Notes under the pieces: model-generated | The model's input: the letters and a program-made list of their open reading frames with translations, nothing else | Databases searched by the model: none | What the model was told of the DNA's origin: nothing | DNA from: a virus | IMG/VR virus record: IMGVR_UViG_3300013004_000175 | Span: 1 to 25,156 of that record | Strand: one strand, 5' to 3' | DNA: 25,156 nucleotides | Shown: piece after piece, positions 15,397 through 17,946 of the stretch | Layout of the letters: every line of letters begins with the position of its first letter | Numbering within the stretch: position 1 is the first letter of the stretch | Program-made: the position numbers and the translations under genes

Positions 15397-15560
15397 GTAA
15401 GTGTGATTCCCCTCTGCCACCCCCCACCCAGCTGGCGCTTTCAATTCACTACCCCTCCCATCTGCCTCCCAAGTTTATTTCTTGCCCTCTATTTTTATTT
15501 TTCCCTACACCCTTCCCCTCACTCATGCTTGGCAGAGATTTTTCTGCTTCATCTTTTAAA
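15397..15560 (+). other. C/T-rich tract in the divergent intergenic region
   Basis: The gap 15289-15564 contains no gene. Its left half is A/T homopolymer-rich. Its right half is abruptly pyrimidine-rich with C runs (ccaccccccaccc near 15417, then CACCCTTCCCCTCACTCATG near 15508), unlike the surrounding 33% GC DNA. Part of it resembles the C-rich modules at 16421 and 18463. It could hold early promoters or the replication origin; no iterons are seen. Confidence 0.5.
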
Positions 15561-15564
15561 TCCT

Positions 15565-15903
15565 ATGACTATGTCTACTCAAGGTTCAGCTAAGTTTTTC
15601 ACTCCTAGTGAGTTCGTTGCAGAGTTTAAAATTGTAACTCTGCGTACTGTAGTAAATAAGAATACCCAAAAGGTTTCTGTATTGCTCAATGAGAATACTC
15701 AAGACAAAGAGTTTCTCCCTGTTAGTAAACAAATTCAAGAAGACCATAATCTTCTTGAGTCAGAGAATCTAAAGTTCTGGGTTCCTATTGAAACTGATAA
15801 GAAAGGAAGAGAAGTCCTTGATTATCAGAGTGCTTGTCTAATTGTCTGCACTCCAGGCGATTTATCTAAGTTTGTAACCAAAGGTATTTCCCTCGGTTTC
15901 TAG
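15565..15903 (+). CDS. Unknown early protein, first gene of the plus-strand block
   Basis: 112 aa from ATG 15565 (MTMSTQGSAKFFTPSEFVAE); the second ATG at 15571 is equally possible. The frame is open upstream, but that part translates the C-rich tract into an implausible P/S/L-rich peptide. The protein is soluble and looks like a small alpha/beta fold (FKIVTLRTVV, SVLLNENTQ, LKFWVPIETD). Codon use is richer in C and G than neighbours. A 12-bp terminator follows at once, so it is monocistronic. Its position suggests an early, abundant host-takeover protein; no family is recognised. It ends in TAG, evidence that TAG is a real stop here. Confidence 0.6.
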   Translation: MTMSTQGSAKFFTPSEFVAEFKIVTLRTVVNKNTQKVSVLLNENTQDKEFLPVSKQIQEDHNLLESENLKFWVPIETDKKGREVLDYQSACLIVCTPGDLSKFVTKGISLGF

Positions 15904-16314: not shown

Positions 16315-16392
16315 ATGGCTGATTTATGTGCAATTGCAAGTGCTATACTATTTACAATAGTAATCATAGCACTAAACTATAAAAGAGATTAA
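16315..16392 (+). CDS. 25-aa putative membrane miniprotein
   Basis: Reads MADLCAIASAILFTIVIIAL then NYKRD: one transmembrane helix with a positively charged tail, consistent with the tail in the cytoplasm. The start follows AAATCTAAACATC, similar to the leader of the 64-aa gene. The stop codon lies in the loop of the next terminator, the same arrangement as in the 64-aa gene. Confidence 0.5.
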   Translation: MADLCAIASAILFTIVIIALNYKRD

Positions 16393-16411
16393 CATCTCTT
16401 TTATTTTTTTT
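16381..16411 (+). terminator. Intrinsic terminator after the miniprotein genes
   Basis: 9-bp inverted repeat AAAAGAGAT (16381-16389) and ATCTCTTTT (16394-16402), loop TAAC, followed by ATTTTTTTT. Confidence 0.88.
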
Positions 16412-16420
16412 ATTTCCTTT

Positions 16421-16470
16421 CACCCTTCCCCCTACTTATTTGGGACACTAACAAAGTCTAGTTATATACA
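16421..16470 (+). promoter_or_regulatory. C-rich promoter-like module before the large RNA
   Basis: CACCCTTCCCCCTAC (16421-16435), then TTATTTGGGACA; GGGACA (16442-16447), 17 bases, and TATACA (16465-16470) have -35/-10 geometry. A closely matching module lies at 18463-18517 (shared TTCACCC-Y-TCCCCCTAC-N-TAT-N-T-N-GGACA). Both stand directly after a terminator and before a new transcription unit. The -10-like box overlaps the first hairpin of the RNA, so the exact start is uncertain. Confidence 0.5.
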
Positions 16471-17283
16471 CATGGTTACTGGTGTATAATAATGAAAAAC
16501 GTGTAACTCATAGCATAAGTGAAACAAACAATGCATACTTTAATGTATTTACCTAAGAATAAGTAAATTGCAAAAATAGTTGATAACATCATTAATCTTA
16601 TGGCACCGTGATACCTCTAAATTTAATTGACAATGACAATTAAATAGGTTAGAAAGTTCAGCATAAGACTATTACATTAAAGTATATTATTTAAAAAACT
16701 TAATAACTTCCCAAGTTGTTGAGGGCACCAGTTTCTTTGATAATTAGAGATACAGTAAAGTGTGACAAAAAACTCTAATGTAAGCAGCGATGTTATATCA
16801 GAAGTTATAAATAAATTGCAAGTTATTTATAATGGAGATATTTCACCTGTGTCAATCCTTACAGATTATCAAAGTTTTAGGTGTAAAACACATTATTATG
16901 ATGAGTTATTGACATTAATAAGGTAGCACCTTATTGTTAAACAGGTCATCGTTTAACTCAGATAAATTGCCTGTTGTTTATCAGTCATTTTAATTGTTTA
17001 TAAAAAGTTGCAATGTAAAATCTAAATATATCATAATAGACGTATTATGAAGAAGGTAGTCTTATACTTTTTAGTTGGTTAAATGGGATGTTGAAATAGA
17101 GCACATCACCCTGAATACATTGTAACTTTTTATTTTAATGCACCACAACTCACTTCCCAAGGGTGAGCAGTTGTAATTGGTTATGTCCATTCTAGAAGGG
17201 ATATAATCTGTAAACCTACTGTCACATAGATGACAGCTTGAAAAACATCGCCAAAGATGTGGGATTACAACTGAGTGCAGAGG
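16465..17283 (+). ncRNA. Large, highly structured noncoding RNA (GOLLD/ROOL-like in style)
   Basis: About 820 bases with no plausible gene but dense base pairing. Hairpin 16465-71/16482-88. Domain closed by 13 bp 16535-47/16673-85, containing 16548-52/16563-67, 16596-602/16662-68 and a 9-bp hairpin 16621-29/16637-45. 11-bp hairpin 16699-709/16713-23. Domain closed by 10 bp 16735-44/16865-74, with 16745-49/16773-77 and a 10-bp hairpin 16805-14/16823-32. Tandem hairpins 16875-79/16884-88, 16917-24/16928-35, 16936-42/16951-57, 16961-66/16977-82. Domain closed by 18 bp 17000-17/17116-33, with 17031-38/17043-50 and 17087-91/17103-07. Hairpin 17149-53/17163-67. Domain closed by 11 bp 17168-78/17263-73, with 17179-88/17199-208, 17219-24/17231-36 and 17245-49/17256-60. 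Imperfect positions are G.U on the plus strand. Function unknown; ends approximate; no terminator follows, so it is co-transcribed with, or processed from, the next genes. Confidence 0.8.
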
Positions 17284-17300
17284 GAAATTATTTTTAAACA
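17284..17300 (+). repeat. 17-nt leader repeat, copy 1
   Basis: GAAATTATTTTTAAACA, identical to 17492-17508. It begins right at the 3' boundary of the structured RNA and ends 16 bases before the 49-aa gene. Possibly a ribosome-loading leader, processing site or promoter part. Confidence 0.6.
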
Positions 17301-17316
17301 CTTTAAATTTAATAAC

Positions 17317-17466
17317 ATGAAAAACTATAAAGTTATTTATTTAAATACAGAATATAGTGTTATGTCTATTTCTGTTACAGCTTCTAATGAAGAAGAAGCA
17401 AGATTATATGTATATAGTCATGTAGAAAATTGTATTAAAACACTTTCTGCTGAATATATAAATTAA
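17317..17466 (+). CDS. 49-aa unknown protein
   Basis: MKNYKVIYLNTEYSVMSISV then TASNEEEARLYVYSHVENCI... The pattern of two beta strands followed by an amphipathic helix with EEEA is typical of very small ferredoxin-like or DUF-type phage proteins. I chose ATG 17317; the frame is open a little further upstream from a GTG, but that part overlaps the RNA and the 17-nt repeat. It follows the large RNA and precedes the lipoprotein gene with no terminator between, so all may share one transcript. No family recognised. Confidence 0.55.
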   Translation: MKNYKVIYLNTEYSVMSISVTASNEEEARLYVYSHVENCIKTLSAEYIN

Positions 17467-17526: not shown

Positions 17527-17922
17527 ATGAAAACATTATTTGCATTATTATTAACATTTACATTAGTATCATGTAAAGCACAAAATCAAATTGACATTGA
17601 CAACTTAGACAGTTTAATTATTACTAATACTTGTCTTGCAGAATTATGCTCATCTAATGATGAAATAGAATGTTTTGCATTCTATTTTGATACAAAACCA
17701 CACATTATCAAAGCAAATCTAAATCATTACAGAGTATTATACTCTTCTGAACTTAGAGATGCAGGATGGAATCCACAATCTCCATTTGACCTTATAAATT
17801 TCAGAGTACCTATTGACCAATATGGCATCATAGTTACTTGGGAAGAATGGAAAAAAATACATCATATAGATAATGATACTGAAGAGAAAACTTTATTTCA
17901 TTATCCTATAGAAGAGGACTAA
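17527..17922 (+). CDS. Phage-encoded lipoprotein
   Basis: 131 aa. The N-terminus MKTLFALLLTFTLVSCKAQN is a classical type II signal peptide: K2, a hydrophobic core, and the lipobox LVSC with lipidated C16. The mature part (115 aa) is acidic, with a possible CAELCSSNDEIEC cysteine pair and a D/E-rich C-terminus ending PIEED. It should be anchored in the outer or inner membrane of the host. Phage lipoproteins often block infection by related phages (superinfection exclusion); another possibility is a lysis role. The early-side location supports a function soon after infection. Its terminator follows immediately. Confidence 0.72.
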   Translation: MKTLFALLLTFTLVSCKAQNQIDIDNLDSLIITNTCLAELCSSNDEIECFAFYFDTKPHIIKANLNHYRVLYSSELRDAGWNPQSPFDLINFRVPIDQYGIIVTWEEWKKIHHIDNDTEEKTLFHYPIEED

Positions 17923-17946
17923 AAAAGGTGGAGAAATCCACCTTTT
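17923..17946 (+). terminator. Intrinsic terminator after the lipoprotein gene
   Basis: Perfect 10-bp stem AAAAGGTGGA (17923-17932) and TCCACCTTTT (17937-17946) capped by a GAAA (GNRA) tetraloop. The T run is short, but the structure is very stable. Symmetric A/T flanks mean it could work in both directions. Confidence 0.82.

Follow-up and report, generated by a model that had tools for sequence, protein, structure and literature searches.

Anatomy of the noncoding region

The question raised by this locus is what kind of RNA is encoded at positions 16465-17283 of the IMG/VR record IMGVR_UViG_3300013004_000175, and what such an RNA might do for a phage. The initial annotation of the analyzed stretch (25,156 nt, hereafter the window) had taken this region for a single ornate noncoding RNA of a crAss-like phage. 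Its noncoding nature was upheld, as no credible gene overlaps it. A minus-strand frame with a GTG start (17071-17301) is the only one of the ORFs of at least 60 aa to have most of its length within the region. The long-range helices proposed at 16535-47/16673-85, 16735-44/16865-74, 17000-17/17116-33, and 17168-78/17263-73 were paired at 13/13, 10/10, 18/18, and 11/11 positions, respectively, with G.U pairs counted, and the imperfect pairs (17010/17123, 16701/16721, 16704/16718, 17180/17207, 17185/17202, and 17178/17263) were G.U on the plus strand in 6/6 cases. Perfect Watson-Crick stems of at least 10 bp within 220 nt numbered 5, compared with 0.38 ± 0.61 in dinucleotide shuffles (maximum of 2), and those of at least 9 bp numbered 7, compared with 1.25 (maximum of 3).

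The folding z-scores of 16465-17283 against shuffles were -4.6 on the plus strand and -3.8 on the minus strand, and a second calculation for 16440-17310 gave -3.6 and -4.85, respectively. Because the minus strand also folds well, energy alone leaves the strand unfixed, and an assignment on that basis was rejected. The plus strand, as originally claimed, was fixed instead by the excess of G.U over A.C in the pair cells of homologues of module M1 (described below) when read on this strand (34 versus 3), by the common orientation of the modules, which lay on one strand in 91/91 contigs and opposite to TerL in 39/39 cases, and by promoter-like and terminator-like elements upstream. In the window, the module strand is that of the replication genes. 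The earlier borders were judged good and could be refined to a leader from about 16440, M1 at 16693-16888, and M2 at 17137-17285; positions 16440-17290 would encode a multi-domain noncoding RNA. A tRNA/tmRNA search of the window gave no match.

Upstream of the RNA, the plus strand reads as a terminator-like hairpin, AAAAGAGATTAACATCTCTTTT, with a run rich in T after it (16381-16402); this hairpin is absent from the automatic terminator scan and likely ends the upstream unit. An ORF farther upstream (15403-15903) is conserved in the locus L090 only. The promoter-like repeat CACCCTTCCCCCTAC follows at 16421-16435 on the plus strand, with exact copies also at 15508 and 18467; these 3 exact matches in the window are all on the plus strand, each ahead of a rightward unit, and allowing up to 3 mismatches gave 5 matches against 0.67 expected. 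The same element precedes the RNA in L090. The repeat CACCCYTCCCCYYAC, found at window positions 15508, 16421, and 18467 ahead of the three rightward units, is a candidate phage promoter motif.

The RNA itself, all on the plus strand, opens with a conserved 5' leader (16440-16536) and a first domain (16535-16685) closed by the 13-bp helix 16535-16547/16673-16685, for which no homologue was found other than the near-identical L026. M1 comes next, followed by a middle domain (16889-17133) with the 18-bp helix 17000-17017/17116-17133, and by M2. Past the 3' end of the RNA, what appears to be the same unit continues with two small plus-strand ORFs (17317-17466 and 17527-17922) and is closed by a terminator-like hairpin at 17923-17946.

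Conserved modules and their pseudoknots

A blastn search of phage records with the region matched 14 of them over short lengths; 13 of these were uncultured crAss-like genomes. M1 consists of two recurring blocks, AAAAAACTYAATAACTTYCCAAGAYRTTGAGGRCACCAGTTTCTT and AAGTTTTAGGTGTAAAA, spaced by about 10-200 nt. An IMG/VR scan with part of the first block returned 89 stretches, and the second block was also present in nearly all of them. The module was found with a near-invariant core in about 90 uncultured phage contigs, mostly crAss-like. The window copy, on the plus strand, has both conserved blocks and the characteristic pairing between the loop and the following GRR: its hairpin carries the loop CTTCCCAAG, in which CCC (16710-16712) pairs with GGG (16723-16725), and is followed by CACC (16726-16729), a variable arm (16735-16874), and the 3' block (16872-16888). 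In the homologues, the loop bases xyC before AAG pair with the three bases directly after the hairpin in the combinations CCC/GGG, TCC/GGA, CAC/GTG, TGC/GCA, TTC/GAA, and CTC/GAG. CCC/GGG was counted 31 times and TCC/GGA 36 times, with 0 crossed combinations (Fisher 8e-20), and a search leaving both sides free found the central loop pair, which occurs as C-G, T-A, A-T, and G-C, to be paired in 32/32 cases.

Among annotated phage records, M1 occurred in uncultured phages only, and it was present in the Suoliviridae genomes cr60, cr114, cr6, cr53, cr118, and cr10. The M1 pattern gave 47 matches across genomes of 84,980 species, of which 2 were real, both in metagenome-derived assemblies; in one of these, the contig that bears M1 also encodes a crAss-like terminase. 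The module was single-copy in the 50 records scanned.

M2 forms the 3' end of the RNA region as a three-way junction whose core is AATGCACCAYAACTCACTTCCCAAGGGTGAGCAG, the arm, and CTGAGTGCAGAGGG; this near-invariant core was found by scanning in at least 119 uncultured phage stretches, mostly crAss-like, and was usually single-copy in the 50 records scanned. The plus-strand copy in the window has P1 (17139-17143/17275-17279), P2 (17149-17153/17163-17167) with the loop TTCCCAAGG, an arm stem starting at 17168/17273, and a loop-tail pseudoknot of CCC (17156-17158) with GGG (17282-17284); the arm (17178-17263) is a conserved three-hairpin RNA domain. Among the homologues, P1 occurred as TGCAC/GTGCA, TGTAC/GTACA, and TGCAT/ATGCA, numerous compensated forms of the P2 stem enclosed the loop UUCCCAAGG, and the loop paired with the tail as CCC with GGG 3' of P1 or as CAC with GTG. 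The complementarity of P1, P2, and P3 entered detection in one M2 covariation search, and P2 was still 97-99% paired when its stem was left unconstrained. The loci were fetched by exact patterns, making the invariance of the pattern letters partly a selection effect, of which the pseudoknot counts and the unconstrained P2 counts are independent, as they are of the complementarity used in detection. Covariation among homologues, on which the initial annotation had made its reading depend, was strong and decisive at the M1 loop/GRR and at M2 P1, P2, and loop/tail.

A third module, M3, occurs outside the window and consists of TACTCTCATCCAAGCAGG, an arm, and CAAGGGTTGCAACCTTGTGAGAGTA. Queries with M2 and M3 gave no match in 50,697 annotated phage records. 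An M2 variant in L282, L286, L322, L325, and L433 has its hairpin loop opened by an insert starting with GTGGATATAAAGACTTCTT. At 2900-3200 of L221, module-like units, each closed by a terminal helix of its own (ACCACAAG..CTTGTGG and AATAAGTAGG..CTACTTATT), suggest more module families than M1-M3.

Exchange of arms between conserved cores

The single conserved 820-nt fold originally envisaged gave way to a chain of nested, exchangeable, and separately conserved modules once homologues were compared. The near relative L057 shares the middle unit with the window at 98.8% identity and matches it in the M1 and M2 cores, but both of its arms are unrelated; in L090, the leader is 98% identical and the downstream gene region 84% alike, and the intervening array differs. 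The 414 module copies contained 333 distinct arms. Flanks 98-100% identical enclosed unrelated arms in L172/L374 and L186/L196, and conversely, 214 pairs shared the same arm with unrelated flanks. The arms also cross between module types: the window M1 arm (16762-16866) is 88% identical to the M2 arm of L048, and the M2 arm of the window, whose three-hairpin domain shows compensatory changes, recurs in M2, M3, and other stems of other phages. Adjoining modules were separated by as little as 0-5 nt, and the module set, order, and total length varied greatly among phages. The junction-spanning matches contained no clean empty insertion sites, most being self-matches or neighboring units.

We refer to the conserved cores as sockets and to the arms as cartridges. 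M1 and M2, with M3 and others elsewhere, would join head to tail, each socket being a pseudoknotted junction whose free arm holds an exchangeable structured cartridge, and both cartridges and whole modules are exchanged among phages, presumably via recombination at the near-invariant cores. We regard this anatomy and the exchange of cartridges as almost certain.

Carriers and genomic setting

The assignment to a crAss-like phage held, with a TerL similar to that of the window in 44/50 carriers and a similar MCP in 40/50, some of these MCP matches being weak. Since an ORF of more than 100 aa overlapped only 1/77 M1, 1/114 M2, and 0/31 M3 copies, the modules are almost always intergenic. RAGATH-7/14 and hatchet ribozymes occurred in the corresponding regions of human-gut genomes, hatchet in several M1 loci, a pistol ribozyme lay near M3 in L428, and some module arrays were near tRNAs. 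No common neighboring gene was found; the largest downstream family follows 33/414 copies, with a median distance of 318 nt.

Relation to known RNAs

Membership in GOLLD, ROOL, OLE, or HEARO was not borne out, as cmscan of the window against all 4227 Rfam 15 families gave no match at the gathering thresholds and none relevant up to E=5. M1, M2, and M3 matched no Rfam family at gathering or relaxed thresholds, and the Rfam models of known small self-cleaving ribozymes had no match in the window. The RAGATH-7 (RF03159), RAGATH-14 (RF03145), hatchet (RF02678), and pistol (RF02679) elements share or adjoin the intergenic regions of some carriers, but none of these models matches M1, M2, M3, or the window, the RAGATH-7 and RAGATH-14 matches being confined to the loci of other phages. 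With M1, M2, and M3, no fewer than three widespread families of phage RNA lie outside Rfam, and the modular phage RNA is real and uncatalogued. A literature search found no prior description, although an unnamed earlier candidate is possible, for example among the 224 candidate RNAs that a 2017 paper by Weinberg reportedly contains.

Several known systems share single features with this RNA. GOLLD and ROOL (PMC12286853) are likewise large RNAs of phages, rich in structure, with pseudoknots and of unknown function, and some of them lie near tRNAs. They have one long conserved fold, whereas this RNA has many short cores, interchangeable arms, and variable module order, and it has no Rfam match. 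By analogy only, CRISPR repeat-spacer arrays, snoRNA guides, and TnpB reRNAs also combine an invariant scaffold with a variable part, which in those systems is a short single-stranded guide and here is a folded domain; no nuclease or partner gene was found associated with the modules. Because of the plug-in organization and the lack of a matching family, we rate the RNA as new in kind, the alternative view being that all large phage RNAs are of one kind. Evolution of RNA domains by plug-in exchange between conserved scaffolds has no described counterpart that we found.

Possible functions

The combination of near-invariant sockets, exchanged structured arms, no shared neighboring gene, and fixed strand is best fitted by a trans-acting RNA, the lack of a common neighbor favoring action in trans rather than the control of a single gene. 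In this model, the sockets would fold, protect, and space the RNA or bind one shared partner, and the cartridges would confer a changeable binding specificity in trans. We give this multi-domain RNA, displaying specificity through exchangeable cartridges, somewhat less than an even chance. From the pattern of turnover, the cartridge targets may be host factors, including defenses, with the RNA as a decoy or regulator; this display or decoy function is a tentative proposal, a little less probable again. Against this model, about a third of the M1 and M2 copies (33-37%) lie 20-70 nt ahead of an ORF, which also fits a cis role, the turnover of cartridges may amount to neutral reshuffling of domains that serve as spacers, and GOLLD too combines a conserved with a variable part.

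One alternative is an RNA-only multimer analogous to but independent of GOLLD and ROOL, in which a homo-oligomeric cage or particle would hold the arms inside or outside as cargo or linkers. The RNA is in the same size class, phage-borne, and pseudoknotted, with some arrays near tRNAs, and the M1 loop-GRR pairing, which involves bases directly beside the hairpin, may in fact be a contact between molecules. GOLLD and ROOL, also carried by phages and frequently located near tRNA islands, assemble into 14-mer and 8-mer cages, and GOLLD is likewise divided into a conserved and a variable part (PMC12286853). A varying module set, order, and length is, however, hard to square with one symmetric particle, and together with the missing GOLLD/ROOL match in Rfam this makes a cage unlikely.

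We assign the same low probability to RNA-processing or stability elements, namely self-cleaving ribozymes or exonuclease-blocking pseudoknots that set transcript ends, with the arms as passive parts. In the exonuclease-resistant RNAs that plant and animal RNA viruses carry, a hairpin loop pairs with bases lying 3' to the stem that closes the junction, a topology resembling that of M2; the two have no sequence relation, and the carrier of M2 is a DNA phage of a bacterial host. The hatchet and pistol ribozymes near M1 and M3 and the M1 and M2 copies shortly ahead of ORFs also agree with a processing role, but the window matches no known ribozyme model, and the arms, as domains of conserved structure in which compensatory changes occur, are not passive.

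More doubtful still is a cis-acting leader that would act on the small ORFs downstream, as a riboswitch-like element or through control of translation. The RNA does have a promoter-like element on one side and two small ORFs on the other, all in one unit, but the downstream genes are not conserved from one module copy to the next, and an array contains several modules, whose order varies. DNA-level elements such as transposon ends, integron-type recombination sites, or replication hairpins would account for the many contexts and complementary ends of the modules, but are very improbable given the strict single orientation, the G.U excess, and the lack of clean empty sites.

Returning to the trans-acting RNA, its sockets may constitute a combinatorial RNA-domain system, in which phages share a pool of cartridges and swap them to alter the host factor or defense that is bound, as an RNA counterpart of tail-fiber or anti-defense gene exchange. 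We consider this extension possible but rather unlikely. More broadly, the modular RNA makes a testable system out of intergenic DNA that had lacked an explanation in an abundant group of gut phages.

Other features of the carriers were also observed. The M1-bearing contigs L010 (5709-6083) and L039 (6604-6846) also carry tmRNA and permuted tmRNA. At about 2031-2095 of L006 (phage cr53_1), a hammerhead ribozyme core (CTGATGAG ... GAAAC), seen by eye and with no Rfam match at the gathering threshold, lies beside RAGATH-14 and two hatchet ribozymes. Finally, the TerL frames in the records behind L045, L046, L059, L143, L261, L264, and L283 have TAG interruptions, as expected if TAG is decoded as an amino acid.
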